Shown: one piece after another, positions 7,283 to 24,557 of the stretch
Layout of the letters: each line of letters opens with the position of its first letter
How positions within the stretch are numbered: the stretch's first letter is position 1
Assembly (NCBI GenBank): GCA_019115995.1
Contig: DXCL01000020.1
Location: forward strand, 1 to 51,284
Length of the DNA stretch: 51,284 bases
Direction: 5' to 3'
Source of the DNA: Candidatus Borkfalkia avistercoris
GTDB taxonomy: Bacteria > Bacillota > Clostridia > Christensenellales > Borkfalkiaceae
Translations under genes and position numbers: made by a program
The notes under the pieces: model-generated
Seen by the model: the letters and a program-made list of their open reading frames with translations, nothing else
The model's database searches: none
Told to the model about the DNA's origin: nothing

Positions 7283-7295
7283 GTGAGGTGAAAAA

Positions 7296-9959: not shown

Positions 9960-12223
9960 AAAAGCTTTTGAAAAAGCTCGGCGCATTGTTGCTTTGTCTT
10001 GTGTTCGTATTCTCGCTTGCCGCCTGCGGCGATAAGACCCCCACGAAGGACGATCCCGATGATCCGACGGTGGATCCGCCTCCTACGCAGACGGATCCCG
10101 TCCCGCCCGAGCTGAGCGAGCTGATAGACGACGAATATGCGACGGCGGAACGCGGAGATAAGCCCGAAGTGCCCCGCTTCCCCGAGGATGAAGAATGGAA
10201 GCAGCTGCTTGAAAAACAGCAGGCGATCGAGGCGGGCGAAAAGTTTACGGAAACCTTTGACGGCACGTACTTTACTTCCAGGCTTTCTGCCGTTTCCGAC
10301 GGCGCGAGCTTTGAGACGATCGAAGGCAGCGACGCGATCGAAGGAAAATCTCTGCGTATCACGACGGAAGGAAACTATGCGGGGATCCGTCTTACGGGCG
10401 CAAAGTTCATAGCGGGCGCAACGTATACCGTTAAAATGGATTACAATGTAATTACGCCCTCCGACGACTTTTTCTTCCAATTCCGCGACGCGACCGCGGG
10501 CAGCGTGAGCGATCTGTTCACCACGTTCGGCGCTACGGCGGGGAAGGGTTCGATCGAACATACTTTCACGCTCGGCATGTACAGCGGTTATTATATCATG
10601 ATCATGCCGCGCACAAAGGCGGGAGAACTCGTGATCGATAATATCGAGATCACGCGCGACGATTCCCGCCCGATGGCAAGCGAAGTTTCCCTGAAAGGCG
10701 AAGTTGCCGTGGGAAGCACCGTGGAAGCGTCGTACGTGTACAGCGATTACGAAAACGACCCCGAAGGCGAGAGCGAGATCAGGTGGTTCACGGCGCTGAC
10801 CGATACGGGCATGAATAAAATGATGCTCGACAATACGGGCAAAACGCTGGAAATCACGGAAGACATGAACGGAAAGTATATCGGCTTCCAGGTAATTCCA
10901 AAGTCTCAGGGCGAAAATTCGACGGGGGTTCCCGTGCTGTATATGGCTACGGAAACGGTCGGCGGTGGCCGTCCCGATTACGGCGAAAAGTTCTCTTTGG
11001 AACCGGGCGAAAGCTTTACGGAAACCTTTGAGGCCGATACGGGTGAAGACAAAAACCTCATCTATGTGCCGCACGGCAATACAGACAATTACATTTACAA
11101 AGATGCAGACAGAAATTCCAACGTGCTTCGCATCAAGAGCGACGGCGCATATTACGGCACAGACTTTACGGGCATAAGCTTTACAAAAAATTGGACTTAT
11201 ACGATCAGCTTTGATTATGCGTTTGTTACTGTACCGAATACTTTTTATGTACAGCTGCGTTCAACGATGGGGGATTCGTTCTATCAGATTCCTACAGAAG
11301 ATGCTGTTGCCGGAAAATGGGAGCATATCAGCGGAGAGCTTACCGTCGGAAACGCGGACGATGCGTTTTTGATGATGTTCCCCGATGCGACCGCAGTTGA
11401 GATATTGATCGATAATTTGACGATTACTCGCGCGGAACCGCCGGAAGATAATCCTCCCACAGCGATTGATTTATCCTTGGAAGGCGAGTTAACAATCGGC
11501 AGCACGCTGACGGCGCATTATACCTATCAGGATTCAGAAAATGATCCCGAAGGAGAAAGCGAAATTCAGTGGTTTGCCGGGCTTTCAGACACGGGCAAAA
11601 ATAAAACTTTGCTTGATAACGAAGGCAGTACCCTTGTAATCACCGAAGACTTGGCAGGTATGTATATCGGTTTCCAAGTTATACCCAAGGCGGCTTCCGG
11701 CAGTGATCCTGTCGGCAGTCCGGTGCTGCTGATTTCAAAGGATAAGGTCGGCAATACGCAAGTAAATGCGGGAGAGACATTCACTCTTGCTGTCGGAGAG
11801 AGCTTTACGGAAGATTTCGAGGCAACTGTCGGGCAGGAGAAAAATCTTCTTTTTGTGCCGCATGGTGACACCGACGACTACATTTATTACGACGCAGCAA
11901 GGTCTTCAAATGTGCTTCGGATCGCCAGCGGAGGCGGATATCTCGGTACCGACTTTGAGGGGATCACCTTTGAGGCAAACGCAACCTACCGCATCAGCTT
12001 TGAATTCACCTTTGAAGTGATACCGGACACCTTCTATGTTCAGATCCGTGCGAACGGGCAAGATTCGTTCTTCCAGCTCCCTACGGATCAGCCGGCGGGC
12101 GTTTGGCAGCAGGCCAGCGGGGAATTGACCGTGAAAGATTCAGGCGGCTATCTTATGATGTTTACGCAGGGGTTACCCGTACAGATACTCGTAGATAATT
12201 TAAAAATTGAACGGATCGCATAA
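9956..12223 (+). CDS. Modular lipoprotein with alternating carbohydrate-binding-like and Ig-like repeats
   Basis: A 755-residue lipoprotein (lipobox LAAC, Cys24) with a Pro/Asp/Thr-rich linker and five modules in an A-B-A-B-A order. A modules (about 93-240, 345-500, 600-755) begin with GE(K/S)FTE(T/D)F and end with (V/I)DN(L/I)xI, resembling beta-jelly-roll binding modules. B modules (about 243-335 and 503-590) share YENDPEGESEI(R/Q)WF and are Ig-like in length. No catalytic motif is evident, so a glycan-binding or scaffold role next to the beta-helix protein is the best guess. The start overlaps the upstream stop (ATGA), with an AGGAGG site before it. Codon and GC use drops from about 11.18 kb onward, so the later repeats look to have a different history. 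Confidence 0.8.
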   Translation: MKKLLKKLGALLLCLVFVFSLAACGDKTPTKDDPDDPTVDPPPTQTDPVPPELSELIDDEYATAERGDKPEVPRFPEDEEWKQLLEKQQAIEAGEKFTETFDGTYFTSRLSAVSDGASFETIEGSDAIEGKSLRITTEGNYAGIRLTGAKFIAGATYTVKMDYNVITPSDDFFFQFRDATAGSVSDLFTTFGATAGKGSIEHTFTLGMYSGYYIMIMPRTKAGELVIDNIEITRDDSRPMASEVSLKGEVAVGSTVEASYVYSDYENDPEGESEIRWFTALTDTGMNKMMLDNTGKTLEITEDMNGKYIGFQVIPKSQGENSTGVPVLYMATETVGGGRPDYGEKFSLEPGESFTETFEADTGEDKNLIYVPHGNTDNYIYKDADRNSNVLRIKSDGAYYGTDFTGISFTKNWTYTISFDYAFVTVPNTFYVQLRSTMGDSFYQIPTEDAVAGKWEHISGELTVGNADDAFLMMFPDATAVEILIDNLTITRAEPPEDNPPTAIDLSLEGELTIGSTLTAHYTYQDSENDPEGESEIQWFAGLSDTGKNKTLLDNEGSTLVITEDLAGMYIGFQVIPKAASGSDPVGSPVLLISKDKVGNTQVNAGETFTLAVGESFTEDFEATVGQEKNLLFVPHGDTDDYIYYDAARSSNVLRIASGGGYLGTDFEGITFEANATYRISFEFTFEVIPDTFYVQIRANGQDSFFQLPTDQPAGVWQQASGELTVKDSGGYLMMFTQGLPVQILVDNLKIERIA

Positions 12224-12383
12224 CGAACGCTTTACTAAAAAGCGCGAGCTGATATAGTCATTTGCAAACGCGGCATGGGATTGCGTGATGATTTTCGGGG
12301 GCGGGGGCGCCAACGGATTCATCTTCACGATCGATGATTTCTGCATGACTGTCGTTTCGTAAAGCGATATGTTCCAACGGGCA
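12224..12383. other. Intergenic spacer before ribokinase
   Basis: No gene. It contains GATATAGTCA at 12251-12260, a 10-mer also found at 1414-1423 upstream of the GH4 promoter, and a G-rich patch near 12287-12311. No clear promoter for ribokinase was recognised. Confidence 0.4.
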
Positions 12384-12415
12384 GGGGCGGCAGATTTCTG
12401 CCGCCCCGTATTTTA
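12384..12415 (+). terminator. Terminator of the glycan operon
   Basis: An 11-bp stem (12384-12394 with 12397-12407) followed by GTATTTTAT. It lies only about 30 nt before the ribokinase start, so it could also attenuate read-through into that gene. Confidence 0.7.
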
Positions 12416-12439
12416 TAAAAAACAGGACGGAGTATTTTT

Positions 12440-13357
12440 ATGAACAGGGTGTTCGTCATAGGCAGCGCAAATATGGATCTCGTGATCGGGGCTCCAAGGC
12501 TTCCGGAAATGGGTGAGACCATTCACGGAGATAATTTTTTCACAAATCCCGGCGGCAAGGGAGCAAACCAGGCTGTCGCAGCGGCACGGGCAGGAGCAAA
12601 AACATATTTTTGCGGGCTTGTAGGAGAAGATCTGTACGGCGATACACTTGCCGGCGAGCTCAAAAACAGCGGCGTGGATATAAGTTTGCTCGGCAGAGTA
12701 CGAGGTTGTTCCAGCGGCGTAGCGGTGATCACCGTCGTGCAGGGCGACAACTGTATCGTGCTTGACGGCGGGGCAAATATGCGGGTCGCAGAGAAAAATA
12801 TCGACGATTACCTGAAAGAGGCGCATGGCGGCGATGTTTTGCTTATACAGCAGGAAATTCCTTCAAAGACGGTCGTATATGCGCTTAAAAAGGGAAAGGA
12901 AAAGGGGATGCTTACCCTTTTGAACCCTGCGCCCGCGCAAAATTTCGATAAAGAGGCGCTGCGATTTGCAGATATCGTTCTTCCCAACGAAACGGAGGCG
13001 GCGGAGCTTTCGGGCGGAGCAGAATATAGCGAAGCGGCGGAAATACTTGCGGAAAACGGGTGCACGGTGATCGTTACGCTCGGCGCGCAGGGGTGTCATA
13101 TTTTTGCGGACGGACAGGGCGCAGGCATAGCGTGCCCTAAGGTGAAGGCGGCGGATACCACCGCCGCGGGAGATACTTTTTGCGGTTATCTTGCGGCGCG
13201 TCTGGCCGAAGGGCGGTCGCTCGAAAAAGCGGTGGGCGATGCGCTGGCGGCGGCGTCTCTTGCCGTTACGCGCCGCGGCGCTCAAAAATCGATTCCGTTC
13301 GCAGACGAAGTGGAACAATTCAAATCAAAACAGCCGGATAATTCGGAAACCTTATAA
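12440..13357 (+). CDS. rbsK: Ribokinase, PfkB sugar kinase family
   Basis: A 305-residue cytoplasmic kinase that phosphorylates ribose at O5 using ATP. The N-terminal PfkB signature GGKGANQA is at residues 38-45 and the C-terminal one, DTTAAGDTF, is near 239-247 with Asp246-region as catalytic base; the usual DTTGAGD has Ala instead of Gly. The substrate-defining start (VIGSANMDLV) is typical of ribokinases. The ATG follows an AGGACGGAG site. With the nucleoside hydrolase upstream it would complete a nucleoside-to-ribose-5-phosphate route, though it is separated from that operon by a terminator. Confidence 0.88.
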   Translation: MNRVFVIGSANMDLVIGAPRLPEMGETIHGDNFFTNPGGKGANQAVAAARAGAKTYFCGLVGEDLYGDTLAGELKNSGVDISLLGRVRGCSSGVAVITVVQGDNCIVLDGGANMRVAEKNIDDYLKEAHGGDVLLIQQEIPSKTVVYALKKGKEKGMLTLLNPAPAQNFDKEALRFADIVLPNETEAAELSGGAEYSEAAEILAENGCTVIVTLGAQGCHIFADGQGAGIACPKVKAADTTAAGDTFCGYLAARLAEGRSLEKAVGDALAAASLAVTRRGAQKSIPFADEVEQFKSKQPDNSETL

Positions 13358-13638
13358 TATTCCCCGCATTCAGCAGCCCTCCGGATTTTGCTTTTTCGGT
13401 CGGCTATGGCGGTATAGTTCCTCGCAGACGTCAACACCCGCAAAATCGCTGCAAAAACTCTTATATAAACGAATTGAGAGCCGGGTAAGGGTTTTCCCTT
13501 GCTCTGCTCTTTTACTGCCTATGAGGCATTTACAGACTTCTACGCAACGATTCCGGCTTTTTCCGTTGACTTTTACATACCGACAGAACACGTCTATTGT
13601 AACGCCACGCACTGGAAACGGGAAAATTTGAATTTTTA
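13358..13638. other. Intergenic region after ribokinase
   Basis: About 280 nt without a supported gene. A reverse-strand frame of 91 codons (13370-13645) is open but starts with TTG, lacks a ribosome site and runs into the promoter at 13639, so it is not called. No terminator with a T-run was found directly after ribokinase. Confidence 0.4.
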
Positions 13639-13667
13639 TTGACAAAACAGATATTTAACAATATAAT
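13639..13667 (+). promoter_or_regulatory. Consensus sigma-A promoter of a candidate non-coding RNA
   Basis: TTGACA at 13639-13644, 17-bp spacer, TATAAT at 13662-13667: a perfect housekeeping promoter. Expected start near 13674. No ribosome site or convincing gene follows for over 400 nt. Confidence 0.85.
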
Positions 13668-13673
13668 ATAAAA

Positions 13674-13900
13674 TATCTAAAACTTTTGATGAAGCGGTGC
13701 ATTTATGTAAATCCATTTGTCCGCTATATAGAGAGGGTTCGGTTTTGTTTGGGCGCTGTCTGCCAGGGGCCCGGCTTTATCCGTAAGACGGTTGAAGGCG
13801 GGCCTTTTTCTTTTCAAAAAGTTAGGCACGTTTCGGCGGGCTTTTGCCTGCCCAAAGCCGAACCGCTTTGCCTGCCGCTCCGAAACAAAACACTGCATTT
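13674..13900 (+). ncRNA. Candidate structured RNA with internal terminator and competing helices
   Basis: The transcript from the consensus promoter contains a long-range helix (GGTTCGG 13736-13742 with CCGAACC 13858-13864, and TTTGGGC 13748-13754 with GCCCAAA 13850-13856). Inside it lies a hairpin GGCCCG 13768-13773 / CGGGCC 13799-13804 followed by TTTTTCTTTTC, a plausible terminator, and a second hairpin near 13835-13852. An alternative helix (GTTTTGTTT 13742-13750 with AAACAAAAC 13883-13891) competes with the first. I do not recognise the class: tmRNA, RNase P, SRP and T-box signatures are absent. It could be a trans-acting small RNA or a switch-like leader of the XRE gene. Downstream, 13911-13934 forms another 8-bp hairpin. 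The 3' end is uncertain. Confidence 0.5.
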
Positions 13901-14125
13901 CAACATCTTTTGCCCTCGGAGCTTTTCGGGGGCAGATGTATTTATCCGACAGCGTGATTTTATGATGTAAAGATCAATTTTGCGAGAGGAACTGATAAGA
14001 AGCTTATTTTTATAGAAATTGACCCGTAAAAGAAACGAACATTGCCGTTTATGGGAAACTAAAAATCTGAAATATTTCTTAAATTCCTATAAAATAGTAA
14101 TGAAAGTTTGTATATGGGGTTGACT

Positions 14126-14434
14126 ATGGACGTCAGGTTGAAGATCGATGCGCTTCGTAAGGAAAAGGGCTGGTCACGTTCCGAATTTGCAAAGAAAATA
14201 GGCGTAAGTTACACTGCCGTAAAAAATTGGTATAACGATAAAGATTACATGCCGTCGCTGAAAGTGATAGACGATATTTGTACGGCATTCGGCATTACGC
14301 ACGCTTCCCTGTTTACGGACATCGATCAAGACGAGCTCAGAACCGACCAGATAGAGCTTTTAGAACTGTACGACAGGCTGTCTCCGAAGCTGCGACGAAA
14401 TATTTTAGACATCATCAAAAATCTTATTGAATAA
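14126..14434 (+). CDS. XRE-family helix-turn-helix regulator
   Basis: A 102-residue DNA-binding protein. The XRE helix-turn-helix covers about residues 1-60 (LRKEKGWSRSEFAKKIGVSY, then AVKNWYND and PSLKVIDDICTAFGI), and a short helical tail (ELLELYDRLSPKLRRNILDIIKNLIE) may mediate dimerisation. Starts at TTG 14108 or ATG 14114 are possible; ATG 14126 is preferred because GGGG at 14116-14119 is well placed and the family usually begins a few residues before this helix. The sigma-factor gene begins 19 nt downstream, or overlaps if a TTG start at 14427 is used, so the two are probably co-transcribed and functionally linked. Confidence 0.85.
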   Translation: MDVRLKIDALRKEKGWSRSEFAKKIGVSYTAVKNWYNDKDYMPSLKVIDDICTAFGITHASLFTDIDQDELRTDQIELLELYDRLSPKLRRNILDIIKNLIE

Positions 14435-14453
14435 TTACCGAAGAGATTTTAAA

Positions 14454-14975
14454 ATGAACGAGAGCGAAAACATAGAGTTAGGTGAGCTGATCATAGCGAT
14501 AACGAAGGGAAATACAGACGCGATCGGTGAAATATTCAAAAGATGCGGCAAGGCGATGAAGGCTGTGGCAAAAGCGTATCTGCGCAGCGACGCCGACGCG
14601 GAAGACGTAGTGCAAGATTGTCTGATCACAATCGTTACTAAGGCGAATAAGTTTCGCGAAAACAAAAATGCAAAATCGTGGATCAATACCATCGTAATGA
14701 ACGCCGCTAAAAATAAAATAGGGTATTACAGGCGCCGCGGCGAAAGCGATTTGGAAGTTGCGCGCGGGATCGGCGCAGAGTTAGACGAAAACGGTCTGAT
14801 CGTAAGCGAAATATTTTCTCAGCTTACCGCAAAAGAAAAATCGCTCGTCATTTACAAATATTGGTACAAGTGTACGGTAGCGGAAATGGCCGCCATCATG
14901 CGCCGTTCCAAGTCTACGATCCAGTATCAATTGAACAAATTGGAAGAAAAATTAAAAATTTTTTATAAAAAATAA
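14454..14975 (+). CDS. ECF-type RNA polymerase sigma factor
   Basis: A 173-residue group 4 (ECF) sigma factor. Region 2 spans about residues 18-92 (YLRSDADAEDVVQDCLITIV and NAKSWINTIVMNAAKNKI) and binds the -10 element. Region 4 is at about 120-170 (LTAKEKSLVIYKYWYKCTVAEMAA, then RRSKSTIQYQLNKLEEKL) and binds the -35 element. ATG 14454 follows a GAAGAG site; TTG 14427 is an alternative. The secreted protein and single-pass membrane protein downstream suggest a sigma/anti-sigma style unit. The gap before the next gene contains CGAAC at 14984-14988, as in many ECF -35 elements, so self-regulation is possible (inference). Confidence 0.88.
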   Translation: MNESENIELGELIIAITKGNTDAIGEIFKRCGKAMKAVAKAYLRSDADAEDVVQDCLITIVTKANKFRENKNAKSWINTIVMNAAKNKIGYYRRRGESDLEVARGIGAELDENGLIVSEIFSQLTAKEKSLVIYKYWYKCTVAEMAAIMRRSKSTIQYQLNKLEEKLKIFYKK

Positions 14976-15043
14976 ATTTTTTTCGAACAAACGCACTTTT
15001 CATTTGTTATATATATAAATATATTCAAAGGAGAAGTGCAATC

Positions 15044-15910
15044 ATGAAGTATTGCAAAATTCAAAAGAAGATCGTATCGGTGTTTCTCGCGTGCATATTT
15101 GCCCTGATCGGTATAGCGGCGGTATGCAGTATGAGCGTCTGCACGGGTGTCGCACAGACCGTTTATTATTCAGACGCAGACTACAACGGCGGCGGTTTGC
15201 AAATTGAAGATAGCGAATATATATATCATGATGGCTATACCGTTCACAGCGAATATCAGATTTTGCAGGCTCCTTCTTACGGAAACGGAGACCCCACAAA
15301 AACGAATTTTTGCGCTGCCACTGCGGGTACTAATATTGTAGGATTTTACGATAAAACGTATACGAACTTGATTCCCAATTTTGAGCCGGGTATGTGGGTA
15401 AATGGGGTTTATCGCTATTTTCCTAATGTTGGGTTTGCGGCAATTACACAAGTATTCAATACTTTGTATGATGAAATGCAAGTTAACGTTGACGGAATAG
15501 GGGCGTCCGAAGAAGATTTTAAGTCTGGATTAAATACTTATGTGGAAGACCACGGGTATAACTTATCGTTTTCTTCTTTTTATTCAAATTCCACAAATGT
15601 AAATTTGTCGACTTTCGGAAATGCAATCAATGAGGGAAAAATAGGGGTTCTGTTTTGCCGTACTTATAACTTTGTCTATACCATACAACATTCAGAAGGA
15701 CAAACATTTGTCAGTAAACTCAACTCAGAGAACCCTCATATTATGATGGCATATGGCTATATTACAATAGATTACTATCAAAATGGATCGATTTTCAGAA
15801 CGGATACATACTTACAAGTTTCCAGCGGATTTAGCTCTGCCGATCAAGGCTATATTAAAATGAATGATGATTTGCAGATAGAGGAGGCGCTAATAGTCAA
15901 TATTAGTTAA
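15044..15910 (+). CDS. Secreted C39-like / papain-fold protein
   Basis: A 288-residue exported protein. Residues 10-37 form a signal peptide or N-terminal anchor. The mature part has a Cys near the start of a helix (TNFCAATAGTNIV, Cys90) and a His in NPHIMMAYGY (His232), the order and spacing of a C39-like cysteine peptidase or transglutaminase-like fold, with candidate third residues after it. A strong AAGGAG site precedes the ATG. Base composition from about 15.2 kb is clearly AT-richer than the flanks, suggesting transfer. It sits between an ECF sigma gene and a membrane protein gene. Peptidase activity is inferred only from the Cys/His pattern. Confidence 0.6.
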   Translation: MKYCKIQKKIVSVFLACIFALIGIAAVCSMSVCTGVAQTVYYSDADYNGGGLQIEDSEYIYHDGYTVHSEYQILQAPSYGNGDPTKTNFCAATAGTNIVGFYDKTYTNLIPNFEPGMWVNGVYRYFPNVGFAAITQVFNTLYDEMQVNVDGIGASEEDFKSGLNTYVEDHGYNLSFSSFYSNSTNVNLSTFGNAINEGKIGVLFCRTYNFVYTIQHSEGQTFVSKLNSENPHIMMAYGYITIDYYQNGSIFRTDTYLQVSSGFSSADQGYIKMNDDLQIEEALIVNIS

Positions 15911-15916
15911 CGCATT

Positions 15917-16627
15917 ATGAAAGAGAATAAAGACGCATTAAAAGCAATTCAGGAATTTGCAGACGAAAGTCCGACCCGTTCGGACAAGTTGGAACAGGCA
16001 AAACAGCTCACGCGGGAGCTGTACGGCGAAGATGGCGCCGAAGCGGAACACCGCGGCAGGGGCGGCGCCGTCGCCCTTGCCGCATCTTCAAAGAGAACCC
16101 GTATTTTAACAATTGCGCTCTGCTGCGTTGCATTGCTTTTGGTGGTTGCTATTCTCCTCCCGTTTCTTTTAAGAGAAAAGGAAAGTCCAATTCATTATTA
16201 TGACGATGTATCTATTTACAGTGAAACCATATCAGATATCGATCAATTTATAAGTGAAAACAATTTGGAATTTGCTTATTATGATCACGATTATCTTGCG
16301 TCACAGCACGAAGCATACCGATTGATCGAAAACGATCGCCTCGTATATATTTTACAGAACGTGATATTTTTAAGGCAAAATGATTTTGATTCAATATTGT
16401 TGGGAATTTGTTTCAGTAACGATGAGTTTCAAAAATTTGACGAATTTAAAGGTTTTACAGAATCATTGTTGGTTGGGGGAATTGAAGTAGATTATAAGAT
16501 ATTGGAACAAGATTGGAATTATATCTACGCGAAATTTTCCGTCGATGGCGTCGTGTATTATCTGAACGTTACCACGTCCGGCGGGGCGGAGGTTTTGGAG
16601 CAATATGTAAATTTATTGCTCGCATAA
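15917..16627 (+). CDS. Single-pass membrane protein, possible anti-sigma factor
   Basis: A 236-residue protein with a cytoplasmic charged N-terminus of about 60 residues (two short helices), one membrane helix at about 63-85 and an extracellular domain of about 150 residues rich in Asp, Tyr and Phe. Such topology, next to an ECF sigma factor, fits an anti-sigma or sensor protein, but no zinc-binding HxxxCxxC motif is seen and the family is not recognised. It begins 6 nt after the C39-like gene without a clear ribosome site, so it is probably translated by coupling. The N-terminal third is GC-rich and the external part AT-rich. A terminator follows directly. Confidence 0.6.
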   Translation: MKENKDALKAIQEFADESPTRSDKLEQAKQLTRELYGEDGAEAEHRGRGGAVALAASSKRTRILTIALCCVALLLVVAILLPFLLREKESPIHYYDDVSIYSETISDIDQFISENNLEFAYYDHDYLASQHEAYRLIENDRLVYILQNVIFLRQNDFDSILLGICFSNDEFQKFDEFKGFTESLLVGGIEVDYKILEQDWNYIYAKFSVDGVVYYLNVTTSGGAEVLEQYVNLLLA

Positions 16628-16638
16628 AGCGTAAAAGA

Positions 16639-16669
16639 GCGGTGCGGCAAAAAGGCCGCGCCGCTTTTT
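16639..16669 (+). terminator. Terminator of the sigma/C39-like cluster
   Basis: A 10-bp GC-rich stem (16639-16648 with 16655-16664, one G-T pair) followed by TTTTT. Confidence 0.85.
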
Positions 16670-16696
16670 GTATATGAAGACAAATGAGGGAATATG

Positions 16697-16736
16697 CGAA
16701 GCGCCCGACCGATTGTATCGGTCGGGCGCTTCGTTT
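16697..16736. terminator. Perfect 17-bp hairpin
   Basis: Arms 16697-16713 and 16717-16733 pair without mismatch around a 3-nt loop, with TTT after it. It lies just 28 nt beyond the previous terminator, so it is either a back-up terminator or a short palindromic element. Confidence 0.6.
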
Positions 16737-16847
16737 AAAAATGGATAAAACAAGCAGGAAAAATATGGCAGCGCCGTAAAAGTTGGGATTTTTTACGGAT
16801 CTCATTCCGTTATAATAATGTCGAAAGCAAGGGAATAAGAAATTATT

Positions 16848-17216
16848 ATGACGAAAAAACAGGTGGAGGAAATCGTCAAAAGGTATCCCTATATAGCGTG
16901 CGCCGTTAAAAAGAATCAGGGTGTTGCTGAGTTTGTTTCGGGAGGCAGAAAACGAAAGATCCCCATTACGGAAGAAGTAAAGGCGGTGTGCGATATCATC
17001 GGCGATATTTACCTCAATACGGAAAACATATGGATACGGAAAATGATAGAGGGTTTCAAGGCGGGGCGATCGGATATATCGCTGATACACGACATGCCGT
17101 GGGAAAGGAACGCGTTTTATGAGCGCAAGCGCAAATTGATCGATAAAATCTACAATTGCTGCGTGAGCCTGCAATTGGTCGATTATTATGAAATACTCAA
17201 CGAGGAAATAGCATAG
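16848..17216 (+). CDS. Conserved clostridial protein with RinA/ArpU-like C-terminus
   Basis: A 122-residue basic protein. The C-terminal half (FKAGRSDISLIHDMPWERNAF, then YERKRKLIDKIYNCCVSLQLV) has the look of phage-type RinA/ArpU regulators, in which a helix-turn-helix is followed by an amphipathic helix. The N-terminal half is not recognised. AGGGAAT precedes the ATG, and a TATAAT at 16811-16816 is a likely -10 box without a good -35. The next gene starts on the last base of its stop codon, so the two form a unit. Confidence 0.65.
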   Translation: MTKKQVEEIVKRYPYIACAVKKNQGVAEFVSGGRKRKIPITEEVKAVCDIIGDIYLNTENIWIRKMIEGFKAGRSDISLIHDMPWERNAFYERKRKLIDKIYNCCVSLQLVDYYEILNEEIA

Positions 17217-17428
17217 TGAAAACTTTAAGCGCACAGGAAACGTTGCTTTATATGGTACAGCGGCTGACTGCATATTTGGAGGAACTGCGGGAAGCGAGGG
17301 CCGAAGGGGAGGATTTTGCATACGGGGAGAAGACGGCCTATACGGAATGCCTTGAACTCATACAGCTGTGGGAGGGGGCGAAGGAAAACGGTTTAGACTA
17401 CGAAATAGAAAAGAAGTATCCGTTGTAA
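17216..17428 (+). CDS. Small conserved protein paired with the RinA-like gene
   Basis: A 70-residue acidic, mostly helical protein (LLYMVQRLTAYLEELREARAE, then a YGEKTAYTECLELIQLW segment). The GTG start at 17216 shares one base with the upstream TAG, which implies translational coupling; there is no in-frame ATG nearby. Small proteins with this kind of sequence follow RinA-like genes in Clostridia, but the function is unknown. A strong hairpin terminator follows at 17550. Confidence 0.6.
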   Translation: MKTLSAQETLLYMVQRLTAYLEELREARAEGEDFAYGEKTAYTECLELIQLWEGAKENGLDYEIEKKYPL

Positions 17429-17549
17429 GCTTCTTTGCGTCAGAGCTGTGCGGCTGAATGCTGTTCCGCCGCGCAGAATACCGCAAAAACAAGTAAAAAG
17501 CAGAAAAAAGGAAAATCGGCGCTCGTTCTTAAAGAAACGCGAAAGGCGT

Positions 17550-17586
17550 AAAAAGCGCTCTTCGGCATCGCCGAAGAGCGCTTTTT
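17550..17586. terminator. Bidirectional terminator
   Basis: A perfect 17-bp stem (17550-17566 with 17570-17586) flanked by A5 and T5, serving the + strand pair on the left and the - strand mini-XRE gene on the right. Confidence 0.9.
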
Positions 17587-17596
17587 ACGCTTAGTC

Positions 17597-17785
17597 CTAT
17601 TCAAAAGTGATGTTATTGTCCGTACAGTATTTTTCCAGCTTCGCCTGCGCGTTCGCACTCGGCCTGCCCGTACCTTTGAGCCAGTTGTGCAGGGCGCCCT
17701 TCGAAACGCCGAGAGCCGCCGCCAGCTCGTCGGGCGCGATCCCTTTTTCCTCCACGATCTTTTTGATTTTTTCTGCTGCCGTCAT
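17597..17785 (-). CDS. Mini XRE-type helix-turn-helix protein
   Basis: A 62-residue protein that is almost entirely a Cro/XRE DNA-binding domain (IAPDELAAALGVSKGALHNW, then GRPSANAQAKLEKYC). The helix-turn-helix core GVSKGALHNWLKGTGRPS is clear. AGGAGGGG lies just before the ATG, and a consensus promoter is directly upstream. It is transcribed divergently from the TrkA/RyR pair, with about 170 nt between the starts, so it could repress that pair, itself, or both (inference from position). Confidence 0.82.
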   Translation of the reverse strand: MTAAEKIKKIVEEKGIAPDELAAALGVSKGALHNWLKGTGRPSANAQAKLEKYCTDNNITFE

Positions 17786-17817
17786 AGTTTCCCCTCCTAA
17801 AAGATTTCTGTATCCAT

Positions 17818-17846
17818 ATTATACGGCAAGGGAGGCGCGGTGTCAA
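17818..17846 (-). promoter_or_regulatory. Promoter of the mini-XRE gene
   Basis: On the - strand TTGACA (17841-17846) and TATAAT (17818-17823) are separated by 17 bp, a perfect sigma-A promoter. Confidence 0.85.
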
Positions 17847-17920
17847 TATTTTTTTAAAAATAAAAGGCGCGGGCGCTTTCGGGAAATTTCGGCAAAAAGC
17901 TTTCAAAATCAATGCGCCTG

Positions 17921-17929
17921 TGCTATAAT
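17921..17929 (+). promoter_or_regulatory. Extended -10 promoter of the TrkA/RyR-like pair
   Basis: TGCTATAAT at 17921-17929 is a full extended -10 element; the -35 position (TTTCAA near 17901) is weak. The ribosome site and ATG follow about 30 nt later. Confidence 0.65.
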
Positions 17930-17958
17930 AGTGAAAAACGGAATTTCGGGAGAACAAA

Positions 17959-20130
17959 ATGAGCTTTACGAATACGGTTTCCGCAATTTGCCTCGTATAT
18001 ATGGCGGCGGTCGTCGTTTTTACGGTCATGTCCGTCGCATGCGCGCCGGGGAGAAAGGGGAAGCTCCGCGCGCTCAAAAATTTCAAGCGCGGCAAGTTTA
18101 TCCTCATATATGCGGCGGCGATCCCGCTGTACTGGCTGGCGCACACGTTCAACGGCGAACCTGTCGGCGGCGCGCTGCTTCTCGCCATCAAATCTTGCGT
18201 AGACATCGTGGTGCTCAAATACGATTATTCGAGCGCCGCCGCGCTGATGCAGGCAAATACCTTCTATCGCATCGTGATAGACATATGCTTCGTGCTCGTT
18301 GCGGTCAACGCGGTCGTTTTCGTTCTTACGCTCGTGGGCGAGCGCCTGTTCAACTTTTTTGCCAACCGCCGTTCCCTGCGCGCGGAAAAAGTGTACCTCG
18401 TGGTCGGCTATAACGAGCAGAACCTCGCCGTTCTGCGTTCCGTCAAAAAGGAGACGGGGCGCGCGATCCTGCTCTGCGGCGGGGAGAAAGAAGCGGAAGA
18501 CGACGCATTCCTCGCCAAGCGCTCGTACATGCGCTGGAACGGCAGTTTAGACGCGTTCATCGAAAAGCGTTTCAAAAAACTGGCGGAAAGGAGCGTGCAC
18601 GTCGTCGTCAATACGGGCAAAGACGAGGAGAATCTTATCCTGTGCAAGCAGCTTTCCCGCCTCATACAGAAGCTGAACGATGCGGCGCTTTCCGAGGATC
18701 GCGGGGTGTTCGTTTATGCGTTCGGAGCGCCCGAAAATACGTCTGCGTTCGTGCATTTTGTGGAAAAGAGCAAGGGGAGGATCCGTTTCGTCAACAAGTA
18801 CAGGCTGGTGGCGGGAGATTTTGTCAGCAAATATCCCTATACCATGTATATGGGCGAGAGAGAGCTCGATTTTGAGCACGCCGTCGTCCGGCAGGAGGTC
18901 TCGCTCGGGGTCGTGTTCATCGGCTTCGGAAAAGCGAATCAGAGCCTGTTCCTCACCTCCGCCGCGAACGATCAGTTCGTGACCCGCCAAAACGGTCAGA
19001 TCGTGCAGAAAGCGGTGCGATATACCGTTTTTGACAGGAAGGATTCGCATAACGACAAAAACCTGAACCATTCTTATTTCCGCTACCGCGAAGCGCTGCG
19101 GGAGATCGGGGAGCACGAAGAGGACTATCTGCCCCTCCCGCCCGAGCCTGCGGATATCTCCTTTGTCAGGACGGACATCAACGACAATAAATTTTACCGT
19201 GCGCTGCGCGAATGCCTCTCCGCAAAAGGAGGGGAGCTCCCGTATAATTACGTGATCATCGCGTTCGGGTCGGATATGGAAAATCTTGACCTCGCCGACA
19301 AGATCTCCGCAAAGCTGAAAGAGTGGGAACTTTCGGATACGACCCATTTGTTTGTGAAGATACGCAGCGCCAGGCTTTCCGAGCAGGTCGTCGCCCGGGA
19401 ATACGCCGAAGAAGACGGGTTCAGGACCTTCGGCGAGGAAGACCGCGTCGTGTACGACATCGAGCGCATCGCGGGGGAAGCCGCCGAGCAGATGGCGTGG
19501 CGCCGCCATCTCGCCTATACCGCGGAATACGAGCGCGGCGCTTCGGCGGAAGCGGTGCGCGCGGCGGCTTTGGCGGGGTGGTACGGCAGGTTCCGCCAGT
19601 TGCAGAGGGAAGCGAATATCTTTGCCTGTTTGAGCCTGCGTTCCAAGCTCAACATGCTCGGCTTCGACTACGCGCCCATTTCCGACGCGCGCCCCGCCGC
19701 GGAGGAGGAGTTTATGGAAAAATATACGGCGGGCGATCCGATCCGCTATACGGGCGGCGAGTTGAACGGCAAAAAACTCATCGAGTACCGCAACGAAGAT
19801 TTCGAGCGTGATTCCGTTCGCAAGACGTTCGCCGTGCAGGAGCACCAGCGCTGGAACGCCTGCATGATCTCGCACGGGGTGATCCCGTCTTCCAAAGAGG
19901 CGATCGCCCGGCCCGACCGCGGCAAGCGGCTGGATATCCGTCGCCACGGTTGCCTCACGACGTTCGAGGGGTTAAAAGAATACGCCCGCATCGTGGCAGG
20001 ATCGAGCGGAAAAACGGAGGAACAGACGGACGTGATACGCTACGACTATCAGCTCATGGACGACGCCGCGTGGCTGCTTTCTTCCAATGGCTATAAGATC
20101 GTGCGCCGCGCGGAGGAGGATAAAAAATGA
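17959..20130 (+). CDS. Membrane protein with two Rossmann (TrkA-like) domains and a RyR-like C-terminus, subunit A
   Basis: A 723-residue protein. Residues 1-130 hold about four membrane helices (8-28, 47-65, 70-88, 105-130). A Rossmann-like start VYLVVGYNEQNLAVL (145-159) and a second one VVFIGFGKANQSLF (318-331) lie in the cytoplasmic part, as in TrkA/RCK domains that gate ion channels by binding nucleotides; both glycine loops are degenerate. The C-terminal region has QEHQRW (627-632) followed by GVIPS and DRGKR segments, resembling the RyR domain seen in bacterial proteins, which is thought to bind a nucleotide-like ligand. ATG 17959 follows GGGAG. The next gene overlaps by 4 nt and has the same architecture, so A and B likely form one hetero-complex. 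Function unproven; ligand-gated ion flux is one possibility. Confidence 0.7.
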   Translation: MSFTNTVSAICLVYMAAVVVFTVMSVACAPGRKGKLRALKNFKRGKFILIYAAAIPLYWLAHTFNGEPVGGALLLAIKSCVDIVVLKYDYSSAAALMQANTFYRIVIDICFVLVAVNAVVFVLTLVGERLFNFFANRRSLRAEKVYLVVGYNEQNLAVLRSVKKETGRAILLCGGEKEAEDDAFLAKRSYMRWNGSLDAFIEKRFKKLAERSVHVVVNTGKDEENLILCKQLSRLIQKLNDAALSEDRGVFVYAFGAPENTSAFVHFVEKSKGRIRFVNKYRLVAGDFVSKYPYTMYMGERELDFEHAVVRQEVSLGVVFIGFGKANQSLFLTSAANDQFVTRQNGQIVQKAVRYTVFDRKDSHNDKNLNHSYFRYREALREIGEHEEDYLPLPPEPADISFVRTDINDNKFYRALRECLSAKGGELPYNYVIIAFGSDMENLDLADKISAKLKEWELSDTTHLFVKIRSARLSEQVVAREYAEEDGFRTFGEEDRVVYDIERIAGEAAEQMAWRRHLAYTAEYERGASAEAVRAAALAGWYGRFRQLQREANIFACLSLRSKLNMLGFDYAPISDARPAAEEEFMEKYTAGDPIRYTGGELNGKKLIEYRNEDFERDSVRKTFAVQEHQRWNACMISHGVIPSSKEAIARPDRGKRLDIRRHGCLTTFEGLKEYARIVAGSSGKTEEQTDVIRYDYQLMDDAAWLLSSNGYKIVRRAEEDKK

Positions 20131-22508
20131 CTGCTCTCGGTGTGATCGCCGGTATACTCGTACTTGCGCTGCTGTATGCCGTTTCCATGTACGTTTACTT
20201 TGTTCTGCGCCGCAGGCATGCGGCGGCAAAGTTTCTCGTAGAAGTCGGAACGGTATTCTTTGCCATCGTTCTGAGCATCGCGGTGAAGCTCGTCATTCTT
20301 TTGCTCACCACGGCGCCCGATTTCAGCGGCGGATTCGCCTCGGCGCTGATCGCAATTTATTCCGCCATCGGCGGGCTCACCTTCGAGGGGATCTCCTCCG
20401 TTGCGGAGCTGGGCGGATTTTTGAACTGCCTGTACGCGGGCACGTCTCTGTACGCCGGGCTCATCGCGCTGAGCGTCATCACCGCCCGCGCGAGCTATGA
20501 AATTTACAGCTTTATCGCGCTGCGCTTTTTGAACCTGCGCAATCAGAACAAGACGGACATTTACATTTTTATGACGGTCACCGACGACGCTGTTCTGCTT
20601 GCGAACAGCGTCAAAGAGCAGGCGTGTTATGCGAGCGGGGAGCGCAGGTGCGTGATCGTCTTTACGGGCAGCGAGATCGGCGTTTTCGACCGCAAAAACC
20701 CGCTGCATCGGGAGATCATGTCGCGCGGCTATCTGTATTGGGAGTATTCGAATGCGAAAGACGGCACTGCCGAGCCTTCCGTGCTGCGCCGCCTGCGCCT
20801 GTACGCCGCGAACGACCGCGCCGCCTTCCCCGAAGAAGCGCAGACCGGCAAAAAGGGCGAAAAAAGCGCCTTGCAGGACGTGCGCATCTATATTTTCGCG
20901 CTCGGGCTGAGCGGTGATCTCGTCGGATCGGAATCCTCCAACAGCGAGATCATAGGGGAGGAGATGCGAGCCATAGCGCGCGAAATGGCGGAGGGCTCCG
21001 CTCCCTCCTGCGTGGCAGATTTTTATCTGCTCATCGAAAGCGAGATCAATTATTCCTTCTATACCGATATGACAAAGCGCCTCATTTCCGAGGCGTTCAG
21101 AGAGTGCGGCAGCGAAAAGAAAGCGGAAGATTTTTATCACTGCTTTCAGCTGCATGTTTTGAGCGAGCCGAAACTTGCCGCGCGCTGTCTTGCAAAAAAC
21201 AGGAACGCCGTCTTCGCCAAAGACGAAAAGCTGTATTTGAGCGACAACGCGCCCGGCGAGCGCAATGTGTACAGGGCGATCGTGCTCGGCTTCGGCAAGA
21301 CGGGGCAGATGGCGATGAACGCCGTGTTTACGGATACCGCGTACACGAACAAGCAGGGGGTGCCCTCGCAGTTCTTCGCGGACGTATACGATCTGAAAAT
21401 GGACGAGCTCGCGGGGTTGTTTTCCATCGAGCACCCGCTGTATCAGTGCGCGACCCGCATGGAGGAGATCGAGCCGTTTTCGGAAGAGGAATTTGCCGAG
21501 GCTTCGGCGCAGAGCCGCCGCAAGATCGAGCGCTTTTACGAGCCGCTCCTTGCCGCGCGGGGAAAGGGGGAAACGTTTGCAGACATCGTGCGCGGCATGA
21601 AGTTCCCGTGGATCACGTTTCACAAGGCGTCTTGTTTTCAGACGAGGTTCATGCGCTATCTCGACGGCGAGTCGGGCATCGCAGGGGAGCGCAGGGAGAA
21701 AAACAAGCTCCTTTGCAACGCCTTTATCATCGCGCTCGGAGACGACGAGGCGAACATCAAGATGGCAAACTCTCTCATCGACGATCTAAAACACGAATCG
21801 GCGTTCACGAACAAGAGATCTTCCGTCTATCCGCAGATGATCTACGTCAACCTGCGCGACGAAAAGAATTATAACCGCATCAACTGGACGCCGGAAGACG
21901 AAAAGGAGTTCACCGCCTTCAAGGTGATCTTGTTCGGGAACCGCGTGGAGATGTACAGCTACGGGCAGATCATAGACGATTCCGCCGACATGGAATACGA
22001 TTACGCGTACAGCGCCCTATACGGCGGCGGATCGTCGCAGGAGGCGTACGAGGCGTTTTCAAATATCAAAAAATGCATCGAGGAAGGCAGAGAAAACGAG
22101 AATTTCAGCGGCGACATCAAAAAAGCCGTCGACGCGCTCAAAAACATCAAAAAGACGCCGGAAGAACTGCGCCGGAACTGGCTGAACGTAACTTTGTTCA
22201 ACAAGGAATCCAACTACGCCGCCAACCGCTTCAAGCCGTTCATGGCGCATGCGCTGCGCAGCGAACCGCTCACCGGCGGAAGGCTCGTGGAGCTCGCACG
22301 GCTCGAACACGTCCGCTGGTGCCGTTTCCATATGGCGTACGGCTGGACATACCGCCTGTACGACGCCTCCGATAAGGCGACGAAAAACAGATACCGCCGC
22401 ATCAGGGAGCACAACATCCTTTGCCCCTTCGAGATGCTTTCCGCCGACATGCGGGTAAACAATCTCGTGAACGTGGCGCTCGCCGCGGAGGATCAGCCCA
22501 TTCGGTAA
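20127..22508 (+). CDS. Membrane protein with TrkA-like and RyR-like domains, subunit B
   Basis: A 793-residue paralogue of the upstream gene, starting inside its stop codon (ATGA). Residues 1-125 hold about four membrane helices. A first Rossmann-like region begins near 143 (DIYIFMTVTDDAVLLANSV) and a second has an intact GxGxxG loop, VLGFGKTGQ (386-394). The C-terminus carries the clearest RyR-like signature: LARLEHVRWCRFHMAYGW (723-740), with the Glu, Arg, Trp and Gly-Trp positions expected for that domain. A middle part (200-380) has no recognised motif. Subunits A and B are far diverged, arguing for distinct roles in one complex. A bidirectional terminator ends the operon. Confidence 0.72.
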   Translation: MTALGVIAGILVLALLYAVSMYVYFVLRRRHAAAKFLVEVGTVFFAIVLSIAVKLVILLLTTAPDFSGGFASALIAIYSAIGGLTFEGISSVAELGGFLNCLYAGTSLYAGLIALSVITARASYEIYSFIALRFLNLRNQNKTDIYIFMTVTDDAVLLANSVKEQACYASGERRCVIVFTGSEIGVFDRKNPLHREIMSRGYLYWEYSNAKDGTAEPSVLRRLRLYAANDRAAFPEEAQTGKKGEKSALQDVRIYIFALGLSGDLVGSESSNSEIIGEEMRAIAREMAEGSAPSCVADFYLLIESEINYSFYTDMTKRLISEAFRECGSEKKAEDFYHCFQLHVLSEPKLAARCLAKNRNAVFAKDEKLYLSDNAPGERNVYRAIVLGFGKTGQMAMNAVFTDTAYTNKQGVPSQFFADVYDLKMDELAGLFSIEHPLYQCATRMEEIEPFSEEEFAEASAQSRRKIERFYEPLLAARGKGETFADIVRGMKFPWITFHKASCFQTRFMRYLDGESGIAGERREKNKLLCNAFIIALGDDEANIKMANSLIDDLKHESAFTNKRSSVYPQMIYVNLRDEKNYNRINWTPEDEKEFTAFKVILFGNRVEMYSYGQIIDDSADMEYDYAYSALYGGGSSQEAYEAFSNIKKCIEEGRENENFSGDIKKAVDALKNIKKTPEELRRNWLNVTLFNKESNYAANRFKPFMAHALRSEPLTGGRLVELARLEHVRWCRFHMAYGWTYRLYDASDKATKNRYRRIREHNILCPFEMLSADMRVNNLVNVALAAEDQPIR

Positions 22509-22574: not shown

Positions 22575-23216
22575 TTATTCTGTTTCGATGCCGAGCGCCC
22601 GCAAAAGCGCGGCGGCCTGTAAAAGCCCGATCTTCGCCCCTTTGAGTTCAAAGAGAGAGGAGGAAAAGGCGGCGCCCGCTATATCGCAGGAGCTGAGATC
22701 CATTCCTTTGAGAGAGGTCTTGAAAAAATTTGCGCGATCGAACGCGCATTTGGCGACCGACGTGTTTTTCTGCACGCATTCGGCAAAATCGGCAAAGGAG
22801 AACGTACAGCCTTCAAACCGCGCGCCGTTCAGCTTTACGGCGTTAAAATTCGCGTAGGAAAAGGCGCATTTTTCAAAGGAAACGTCTTTTAAAGAACTTT
22901 CCGAAAGATCCGCGCCGACGCCCTTGCAGTCGATAAATCCGGCGCGGCGGAAGGCGCTCTTGCGCAGATCCGCGCCCGAAAGGTCGCACCGCTCGAACAG
23001 AACGTCGGCAAAGTCGCAGCCCTTTAAAAAGGCGCCGTTCAGATCGCATGCGGTAAAAACGCATTCGGAAAATTCCCTGTCGGCAAGGCGCAGCCCCGCA
23101 AAGGACAGCTTATGAAATTTCAGCCCCTCCGCGCGCTCGTCCGTTTGCGCGAGAGCTGCGGCTTCCTGTAAAAAGGGGGCGGGTTCCTGAAAAAATTTCG
23201 GCGGCATGATCTTCAT
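22575..23216 (-). CDS. Pentapeptide-repeat protein
   Basis: A 213-residue protein with a long series of A(D/N)LxX pentapeptide repeats from about residue 35 to 185 (for example CDLSGADLRKSAF, GADLSESSL, YANFNAV), which fold into a right-handed quadrilateral beta-helix. Members can mimic DNA against gyrase or act as generic scaffolds; nothing here decides the role. A longer frame extends upstream to 23741 but covers the divergent gene. The ATG at 23216 has no ribosome site and lies only 7 nt after a consensus -10 box, so the mRNA would be leaderless. ATG 23207 is the other possible start. Confidence 0.85.
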   Translation of the reverse strand: MKIMPPKFFQEPAPFLQEAAALAQTDERAEGLKFHKLSFAGLRLADREFSECVFTACDLNGAFLKGCDFADVLFERCDLSGADLRKSAFRRAGFIDCKGVGADLSESSLKDVSFEKCAFSYANFNAVKLNGARFEGCTFSFADFAECVQKNTSVAKCAFDRANFFKTSLKGMDLSSCDIAGAAFSSSLFELKGAKIGLLQAAALLRALGIETE

Positions 23217-23223
23217 ATATGAT

Positions 23224-23252
23224 ATTATACGGCGCGGGATTTGAGATGTCAA
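23224..23252 (-). promoter_or_regulatory. Promoter of the pentapeptide-repeat gene
   Basis: On the - strand TTGACA (23247-23252), 17-bp spacer, TATAAT (23224-23229). Transcription should start at about 23216, the A of the start codon. Confidence 0.85.
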
Positions 23253-23263
23253 GCGGCTAAAAG

Positions 23264-23293
23264 TTGACTTTTTTGCGGGAAAAGAGTAAGATA
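23264..23293 (+). promoter_or_regulatory. Promoter of the M29 aminopeptidase pair
   Basis: TTGACT (23264-23269) and TAAGAT (23288-23293) with an 18-bp spacer, divergent from the pentapeptide gene promoter. Confidence 0.6.
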
Positions 23294-23330
23294 AAGGCAG
23301 AACGGCAAAATGATTGCCGCGGGAGTCGTT

Positions 23331-24557
23331 ATGAAGAGATCGCTTATCAAAAATTATGCAAAGCTCATCGCGCGCGTGGGCGCCAATATCCAAAAGGGGC
23401 AGGAGGTGTTCATCACCGCCGAGCTGGAAAGCAGAGATTTTATCCTGCTGCTTGCGGAAGAGTGCTACCGCGCGGGCGCTTCCAACGTGTTCGTGGAATG
23501 GAAGTGCCAGAGGTTCGATAAACTCGCCGCGCGTTTTGAAAGCGTGCGCGCGCTCTCCTGCGTGGAGAGCCGCGAGGAGGCAAAGCTTGCTTATCAGGCT
23601 GAGACCCTTCCCGTTACCATTAAAATTTTGTCTGCCGATCCCGACGGCATGAAGGGGGCGGACAGGGAAAAGATCACCCTCGCGCAGATGGCGCGCTCGG
23701 CGATCACCAAACCGTATGCCGACGCGATGACCAACCGTCACCAGTGGTGCGTCGCGGCGGTGCCCTCGGTCGGCTGGGCGAAAAAGGTGTTCCCCGAAGA
23801 GCGCGCCAACGCCGCCGTCGAAAAATTGTGGCAGCTCATCTTAAAGACGGCCCGCGCGGACGGAAAAGACCCGCTCACCGACTGGCTTTGGCACAACCGC
23901 GAACTCAAAGAAAAGTGCGACGCGCTCAACGCGTACAAATTCGTTTCCCTCGAATACAGGAGCGCAAACGGCACGAACCTGAAAGTCGGCCTTATCGATA
24001 AGGCGAAATTCATTTCGGGCAAAAAGAGCACGGCGGACGGGAAATATTTTAATCCGAACATTCCCACGGAGGAGTGCTTTACCACCCCGAAAAAAGGAGA
24101 GGCGGAGGGCATCGCGTATGCGGTCAAACCGCTCTCTTACGGCGGAGAGCTGATCGAAAATTTTTGGATCCGCTTTGAAAAGGGACGGGCGGTCGCATGC
24201 GGCGCGGAAAAGAACGAGGCGCTGCTCAAAAGCATCATCGCGATGGACGAGGGCGCGGCGTATCTCGGCGAGTGCGCGCTCGTGCCGTACGATTCCCCGA
24301 TCAACCGCTGCGGCGTGCTCTTTTACAATACCCTGTTCGACGAAAACGCCTGCTGCCATCTGGCGCTCGGCAGGGGGTACAGCAATACGATAGAAAATTT
24401 TGCCGATTACATGAAGTCGGACTTCATTGAAATGGGCGTGAACGATTCGGATATACACGTAGATTTTATGATCGGCGCGGAGGATCTCGAAGTTACGGGC
24501 GTTACGGCGGACGGCGAGCGGGTCGCCGTGTTCAGAAACGGAACGTGGGCGATCTGA
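23331..24557 (+). CDS. M29 family aminopeptidase, copy 1
   Basis: A 408-residue metallo-aminopeptidase of the thermophilic aminopeptidase T / AmpS family, which removes N-terminal residues from peptides in the cytoplasm with two metal ions. Candidate metal ligands are visible: Glu in YLGECALVPYDSP, His in CCHLALGRG, and His/Asp in DIHVDFMIG. The ATG at 23331 with GGGAG upstream matches the start of the neighbouring copy; ATG 23310 would add seven residues. The two copies are adjacent with a 16-nt gap and clearly arose by tandem duplication. Confidence 0.9.
   Translation: MKRSLIKNYAKLIARVGANIQKGQEVFITAELESRDFILLLAEECYRAGASNVFVEWKCQRFDKLAARFESVRALSCVESREEAKLAYQAETLPVTIKILSADPDGMKGADREKITLAQMARSAITKPYADAMTNRHQWCVAAVPSVGWAKKVFPEERANAAVEKLWQLILKTARADGKDPLTDWLWHNRELKEKCDALNAYKFVSLEYRSANGTNLKVGLIDKAKFISGKKSTADGKYFNPNIPTEECFTTPKKGEAEGIAYAVKPLSYGGELIENFWIRFEKGRAVACGAEKNEALLKSIIAMDEGAAYLGECALVPYDSPINRCGVLFYNTLFDENACCHLALGRGYSNTIENFADYMKSDFIEMGVNDSDIHVDFMIGAEDLEVTGVTADGERVAVFRNGTWAI

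Follow-up and report, generated by a model that had tools for sequence, protein, structure and literature searches.

A recurrent pair of RCK-like membrane proteins with RyR-like C-termini in Candidatus Borkfalkia avistercoris and its possible link to TIR signaling

What might a pair of membrane proteins do if each partner combines a region resembling the gating units of ion channels with a C-terminus resembling part of a ryanodine receptor? This question is raised by two neighboring genes, here called A and B, on a 51,284-nucleotide stretch of DNA from the gut bacterium Candidatus Borkfalkia avistercoris (the window, designated contig C5 within the 1.77 Mb draft genome G000). The original prediction for this DNA described two large genes of 723 and 793 residues overlapping by 4 nucleotides, and their lengths, strands and overlap are all as claimed, with the ATG of B at 20127 and the TGA of A at 20128-20130 sharing an ATGA. 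The existence of the A-B pair, the folds of its products, their distant RyR homology and the association of their relatives with TIR genes are established here by computation. The RyR-tailed, channel-like pair, together with its TIR-adjacent relatives, points to an ion channel that an immune nucleotide signal would switch. The features of the pair are:

17959 to 20130, forward strand: gene A, 723 residues, with a membrane segment, a tandem RCK-like region and an RyR-like C-terminus
17962 to 18378, forward strand: membrane region of A (residues 2-140), modeled with low confidence and missing from the A proteins of loci L059 and L062
18388 to 19782, forward strand: Rossmann/RCK region of A (residues about 144-608), from AlphaFold and Foldseek
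19792 to 20106, forward strand: RyR-like C-terminus of A (residues about 612-716), with H629, W632, H663 and D696
20127 to 22508, forward strand: gene B, 793 residues, with a membrane region including a P-loop-like segment, an RCK-like region and an RyR-like C-terminus
20130 to 20537, forward strand: membrane region of B (residues 2-137), in which two long helices are followed by a shorter one, then a loop and another long helix
20370 to 20390, forward strand: GGLTFEG motif (B residues 82-88) in the place of a pore loop, with no TVGYG
20553 to 22106, forward strand: Rossmann/RCK region of B (residues about 143-660), with a GFGKTG loop
22275 to 22490, forward strand: RyR-like C-terminus of B (residues about 717-788), with H728, W731, H762 and N779

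Searches of Pfam, NCBIfam and PADLOC gave no credible match for A or B; specifically, neither gives a Pfam match of the TrkA_N, TrkH or KtrB type, although TrkA_N appears below its cut-off in a few relatives, and a phmmer comparison of B with PDB sequences returned nothing at E<=1. AlphaFold models were obtained from alignments of 11 sequences for A (mean predicted local distance difference test score 83.0, predicted template modeling score 0.79) and 18 sequences for B (82.4 and 0.82, respectively). In Foldseek comparisons with the PDB the A model gave 19 matches at E<=0.001, namely ten to GsuK, five to TrkA, two to CASTOR and one each to KtrAB and dipicolinate synthase. The result for B is weak, with a single match reaching 0.001 (hSlo1, best E 9e-4), while Slo1, BK, Slo2.2 or potassium channel appears in the titles of nine of its 12 best matches. 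As the TM-scores by query length do not exceed 0.30 among the 50 matches listed for each protein, the Foldseek support is for a fold class and not for close homology. At this level a tandem RCK fold is recovered in both models, weakly in that of B, and the Rossmann folds originally proposed for the two proteins are borne out. The loop of the second Rossmann unit reads GFGKTG in B and GFGKAN in A, and hydrophobic membrane-type segments in both proteins agree with membrane N-termini.

The succession of membrane helices and a tandem Rossmann/RCK region is shared with GsuK, BK/Slo1 and CASTOR, from which A-B differs in comprising two different adjacent subunits with RyR-like C-termini. The potassium uptake systems TrkH-TrkA and KtrAB combine an RCK ring protein with a membrane partner. 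Comparable to TrkA and KtrA, the A proteins of L059 and L062 are devoid of membrane segments: they start after the membrane part, contain no hydrophobic segment and have their own promoter-like sequence upstream (identified by eye), and A can therefore, it appears, work as a soluble subunit. The absence of these segments from two of the five close pairs fits a putative gating or regulatory A, without making B the sole sensor. Unlike the membrane partners of TrkH-TrkA and KtrAB, B is itself RCK-like and, as noted, has no TrkH- or KtrB-type match. Going by the model, the order of the B helices before the first Rossmann strand would correspond to that of a pore module to which one helix has been added. 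In contrast to RCK-gated potassium channels, B has no TVGYG selectivity filter, the sequence GGLTFEG being found there instead; CASTOR, an RCK channel that likewise lacks this filter, shows that such an arrangement exists (PMC6697748). A GGxxFEG loop is found in 17 of the 21 B proteins compared; because the other four deviate from it, with AGLALDG (L073), GHLTLNG (L074), GHLTFNG (L034) and GGANVED (L078), the acidic loop residue is not universal.

The C-termini were compared by means of a profile built from nine stand-alone RyR proteins encoded at related loci, which all have a match to PF02026 (RyR), include those of L067, L072 and L100, and give a clean alignment. In profile-profile comparisons the B C-terminus matches this profile at 97.0% (E 1e-10) and the A C-terminus matches that of B at 96.3% (E 1.6e-9). 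By these measures the B C-terminus is predicted to be a diverged RyR domain, to which that of A is linked only via B, and both appear to resemble the adenine-nucleotide-binding part of animal ryanodine receptors. The close relatives of B that were scanned singly all score below the Pfam cut-off of 27.4 bits (L077 26.0, L061 25.6, L063 21.5, L060 19.9, L073 19.3), and the B of L072 has no RyR match at E<=0.1. At E<=1, RyR is matched by four of the eight members of alignment A1 (best 2.7e-4) and by one of the 11 members of alignment A2. Distant relatives lie at or above the cut-off (L056 30.7, L119 33.3, L114 34.3, L103 28.0, L036 27.4) as well as below it (L105 26.7, L116 22.3, the A-like protein of L058 15.6).

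PMC13232231 reports that the phage protein RyDEP contacts ADP-ribose (ADPR) via H75, W78, H100 and D117, and that six of eight phage homologs bind the cyclic ADP-ribose (cADPR) species 2'cADPR/3'cADPR. When positions are matched by eye, the corresponding residues of A are H629, W632, H663 and D696, identical in all 11 rows of A2, and A would by this matching resemble PF02026 and RyDEP in its pocket of HxxW, a second H and D; in window B the residues are H728, W731, H762 and N779, with three of the four kept. An earlier division of labor between a regulatory A and a ligand-binding B is not supported by this distribution, as all four contact residues are kept in A and an N takes the place of the aspartate in window B. 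The domain of A and B differs from PF02026 and phage RyDEP in being fused to membrane RCK proteins and in falling below the Pfam cut-off; any ligand binding or hydrolysis would be a prediction from sequence. We regard it as quite likely that A and B are the two subunits of an RCK gating complex equipped with sensors of the RyR type.

Across 101 related genomes, A and B are each present in 12 and occur together in seven (p 2.9e-5). G000, G019 and G022 have them side by side; in G011 they lie at the ends of contigs, and in G051, G065 and G075 the two are on different contigs. Five loci hold adjacent pairs: the two genes share the ATGA in the window and in L059 (= G022), L062 (= G019) and L073, and in L077 they are 16 nucleotides apart; the ATG of B in L059 and L062 was chosen by hand. 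The two genes recur as a pair in homologous loci, with Rossmann and RyR folds recognized, in agreement with what had been expected of them. Diverged A-B pairs were also observed in L069 and L075. A contig search with B alone as the query yielded no relatives, and a profile search of genome contigs with A1, an alignment of B, recovered 64 loci; in viral contigs, PLSDB plasmids and INPHARED phages, searched with B as the query, no relatives were detected.

We then consider the gene neighborhoods of these 64 loci, the genomes of 62 of which were covered by a TIR_2 search (L066 and L079 were left out). A TIR gene with a verified reading frame lies within 8 kb in 28 of the 62, as against 1.18 expected from TIR density and locus length (Poisson p 1e-28, uncorrected for kinship; L105, L111 and L118, which look like near relatives, are all counted). 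As several loci end at contig ends, the counts of TIR genes near these genes are lower bounds. Distant relatives, many of them from Lachnospiraceae, account for 24 of the 28. In the B family proper (L059-L078, 19 searched), a TIR gene lies just upstream on the same strand in four of 19 loci (0.80 expected, p 0.009), namely L065, L067, where a stand-alone RyR gene lies between, L068 and L076. According to their Pfam matches, the linked protein of L065 is a TIR-TPR protein, that of L068 a TIR protein with a sub-threshold AAA/NACHT and that of L076 a TIR-HD protein. Stand-alone RyR genes belong to the B gene run in L067 and L068, and one directly precedes B in L072. In that some B relatives follow TIR genes, they are reminiscent of Thoeris, in which a TIR enzyme is combined with an effector sensing an ADPR-type signal; unlike in Thoeris, the putative effector here would be an RCK-RyR membrane pair, and TIR is unlinked at the window locus. 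Binding of Thoeris signals by phage RyR domains is described in PMC13232231.

Several gene arrangements were observed among these relatives. On a contig shared by L029 (4384-11928) and L068 (5642-13186), genes for a stand-alone RyR protein, a TIR protein with a sub-threshold AAA/NACHT and B are consecutive; the stand-alone RyR gene could be a signal-removing switch. L067 and L076 share, at about 6400-21200, a TIR gene (TIR-HD in L076), an RyR gene (in L067), B, and genes for a protein of about 830 residues, a Tubulin_2 protein (a Pfam match in L076, with a 59% homolog in L067) and a protein of about 780 residues. A four-gene run in L087, L097, L102, L104, L110 and L119 codes for a protein of about 665-770 residues (with an EHxRW motif in L087, L097, L110 and L119), a TIR protein, a protein of about 405-420 residues and a membrane-RyR protein of about 450-470 residues; the third of these matches PDDEXK_4 and the PADLOC model PDC-S26 in L119, the sole one scanned, and the run looks like a TIR system without a known name. 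In L103, L114, L117, L094, L112 and L036 a TVGYGD potassium-channel-RyR protein lies near a second RCK-like protein of about 610-655 residues; the RyR C-terminus of the channel protein was checked with Pfam in L103, L114 and L036, and a TIR gene lies beside the two proteins' genes in L103 and L036. The Butyrivibrio/Lachnospiraceae potassium-channel-RyR and transmembrane-RyR proteins of L103, L114 and L119 are like A and B in ending in an RyR domain, theirs being over the Pfam cut-off, but they are only distantly related to A and B, and those of L103 and L114 keep TVGYGD pores. A TIR gene lies near the RyR membrane proteins of L103 and L119. PADLOC gave no match for A, B or the six TIR-linked RyR membrane proteins scanned.

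TIR is also associated with A and B at the level of whole genomes. It is found in 39 of the 101 related genomes, namely in 16 of the 17 with A or B versus 23 of the 84 without either (p 3e-7), and within the genus in seven of eight versus six of 32 (p 6e-4). When G021, G030, G070 and G072, in which TIR lies beside or probably beside the gene, are left out, the comparison stands at 12 of 13 versus 23 of 84 (p 1e-5). A general richness of these genomes in defense genes was considered as the cause, and is not supported by the one control family, N6_Mtase, which at E<=1e-10 is present in seven of 17 genomes with A or B and 25 of 84 without (p 0.26). The A- and B-like genes of G091 have a TIR match at a distance of about 11 kb. 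Among TIR proteins unlinked to A-B, that of G022 shares 50% identity over about 980 residues with the TIR-HD protein of L076, and that of G019 shares 30% identity over about 1000 residues with the TIR-TPR protein of L065, a relative of which was not detected in G000; in both cases the homology extends over the greater part of the protein. G000 itself has five TIR_2 matches on contigs C17, C29, C34 and C39 (L146-L150), four of them over the cut-off and with different architectures. The TIR neighbors of the relatives and this co-occurrence across genomes strengthen the connection to nucleotide signaling that had been proposed for RyR domains.

Based on these observations we tentatively favor, with somewhat less than even confidence, the proposal that A-B takes part in TIR signaling as an RCK gating complex, with RyR domains serving to sense a signal of the ADPR type. 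A and B would be paralog-like subunits that together form a gating complex in the membrane, on the plan of GsuK, BK/Slo1 and TrkH-TrkA, with B giving the membrane or pore part and a tandem RCK, and A adding further RCK units, in a soluble form in some genomes. The diverged RyR (R12-type) domain ending each subunit is predicted to bind an adenine nucleotide from the NAD/ADP-ribose family. This ligand would most likely be made by a TIR-domain NAD enzyme whose gene lies elsewhere in the genome, in trans to A-B. Binding of the signal by the RyR of A, and possibly also that of B, would shift the RCK gating ring, upon which the B pore, lacking the potassium filter, would open and change the membrane potential. 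A-B would thereby probably serve a TIR immune response as its output arm. We infer the ligand, oligomer and conductance of A-B in this scheme, as well as its immune role or any part in phage defense.

A number of observations weigh against this proposal. No TIR gene is present on C5 or in the retrieved flanks of the other four A-B pairs (L059, whose flank downstream of B comprises only about 150 bases before the contig end, L062, L073 and L077); the nearest TIR match on the L073 contig is about 42 kb from A, and the sole match in the L077 genome is on another contig. G016 carries B with no TIR match, no shared TIR ortholog in trans was seen when 15 TIR genes were compared, taken from eight of the 101 genomes, of which six carry A or B, and the tests of TIR association are uncorrected for the relatedness of the genomes. 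In a 20-row tree of B the seven A-paired and four TIR-linked rows are split with branch support 99/99, although nine rows belong to neither group, one of these, L060, is placed among the TIR-linked rows, and the tree comes with long-branch warnings. Furthermore, in L063, L064 and L070 B sits between ClpP-like and ruv-like genes (named by eye), which looks like a stable chromosomal neighborhood and not a defense island. As to the sensor, the RyR-like C-termini originally proposed to be best developed in B, a claim sustained for B by profile homology, lack Pfam significance in the window proteins, neither of which has a PF02026 match at E<=1, and the direct match of the A C-terminus to the RyR profile is only 24.7% (E 7.9e-4). 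Window B has N779 where the other 13 of 14 rows of alignment A7 have D, and a K replaces the first pocket H in the B of L067, L068 and L076.

An alternative is that A-B is a housekeeping ion channel or transporter regulator of the RCK type in these Clostridia, which would sense NAD(H), ATP/ADP or ADP-ribose metabolically and have no immune role, its TIR-linked relatives having been recruited separately. The pairs devoid of TIR neighbors in the retrieved flanks, the conserved ClpP-like and ruv-like surroundings and the different branches of TIR-linked and A-paired B are as it would predict, and by their PDB titles structures of GsuK and TrkA hold NAD, ADP or ATP-gamma-S. However, it accommodates less readily the patchy occurrence of each gene (12 of 101 genomes), the strong co-occurrence of A or B with TIR and the recurrence of the RyR C-terminus among TIR-linked relatives, and we consider it possible, if less than likely.

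A further objection to the proposed TIR-dependent channel concerns its pore: when the B pore region is compared by profile with the TVGYGD pores of its distant relatives, the match falls short of significance (E 0.069), and the channel claim therefore rests on the fold. A and B could instead be non-conducting membrane-anchored sensors, with a pore loop that is no working filter and a nucleotide signal relayed by oligomerization or membrane damage, for which the macrodomain effector of type II Thoeris offers a model (PMC12948488). Such sensors would be in keeping with the missing TVGYG and the missing profile match to potassium pores, and also with a membrane region of A that is poorly modeled and absent from L059 and L062. 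Nevertheless, the loop of B is kept as GGxxFEG in most B proteins, unlike a decaying one, and the overall match of B is to Slo channels, though weak. We regard a non-conducting pair as decidedly unlikely.

The remaining component of the locus is a small gene divergent from A-B, for which the following features were identified:

17597 to 17785, reverse strand: XRE/HTH_3 gene, 62 residues, divergent from A-B (HTH_3 30.3 bits, above the Pfam cut-off)
17818 to 17846, reverse strand: promoter-like site of the XRE gene, sigma-70-type, TTGACA-17-TATAAT, 12/12
17902 to 17929, forward strand: promoter-like site of A-B, sigma-70-type, TTCAAA-16-TATAAT, 10/12, preceded by TG

The divergent reading frame of 62 residues and the promoter-like sites to both sides of it are found as described earlier, a promoter scan returning two sigma-70-type sites versus a mean of 0.6 in shuffled sequence. 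This arrangement could also be read as a module of the toxin-antitoxin-like or phage type, with XRE as the repressor of a toxic membrane pair. However, no homolog of the window XRE was detected (tblastn E<=0.01) in the other A/B loci then retrieved, and its nearest homologs, at 60-65%, are in three genomes of the same genus in which neither A nor B was found. In the loci compared the gene is thus not kept beside the pair, as it would be in an XRE-controlled toxin-antitoxin module, and we consider such a module very improbable. Of the ligand-gated membrane complex under XRE control that was first envisaged, what holds is a recurrent pair with TrkA/RCK-like and RyR-like parts, while the control by XRE is not supported. 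The XRE gene is most simply a neighbor, which may or may not regulate A-B in this strain. A candidate operator in the gap between XRE and A, a single 9-nucleotide inverted repeat pair at 89% with arms 47 nucleotides apart, was not convincing. In L050 an unrelated-looking XRE-type open reading frame lies about 2.7 kb from A. On its other side the window pair is adjoined by a pentapeptide-repeat protein gene called as a long GTG reading frame (22575-23741, reverse strand), which is probably shorter than called because it overlaps in antisense a reading frame at 23310-24557, peptidase-like by eye. Further away, at 48509-49576 on the reverse strand, lies what we take from the look of its N-terminus to be a probable IS30-type transposase.

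Returning to the preferred RCK-RyR complex in TIR signaling, a more specific version of it can be stated, which we put forward as rather doubtful. A-B would be an ion channel gated through its RyR domains by cyclic ADP-ribose-type signals, with a non-potassium pore marked by the acidic GGLTFEG loop, and would serve as an output arm of TIR immunity and a prokaryotic counterpart of the proposed link between cADPR and ryanodine receptors in animals; the stand-alone RyR genes of the TIR-linked runs would then be its signal-removing off switch.

A 2015 survey of nucleotide-centered conflict systems by Burroughs and colleagues may already name TrkA-RyR proteins. A literature search, with most subscription papers outside its reach, found no report of host RyR-domain RCK channels linked to TIR. 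If the proposed function is true, TIR immunity would gain a further effector class, an RCK-gated ion channel with RyR sensors, and the long-standing question of a direct action of cADPR on an RyR R12-type domain would become testable in a small bacterial channel-attached protein. PMC13232231 reports phage RyR-domain proteins by which cADPR signals are bound or cleaved, and the function proposed here would supply a reason for them, since the phage hosts would sense cADPR signals with the same domain. Beyond A-B, RyR membrane proteins linked to TIR genes seem, from the wider survey, to be present in many Clostridia of the gut.

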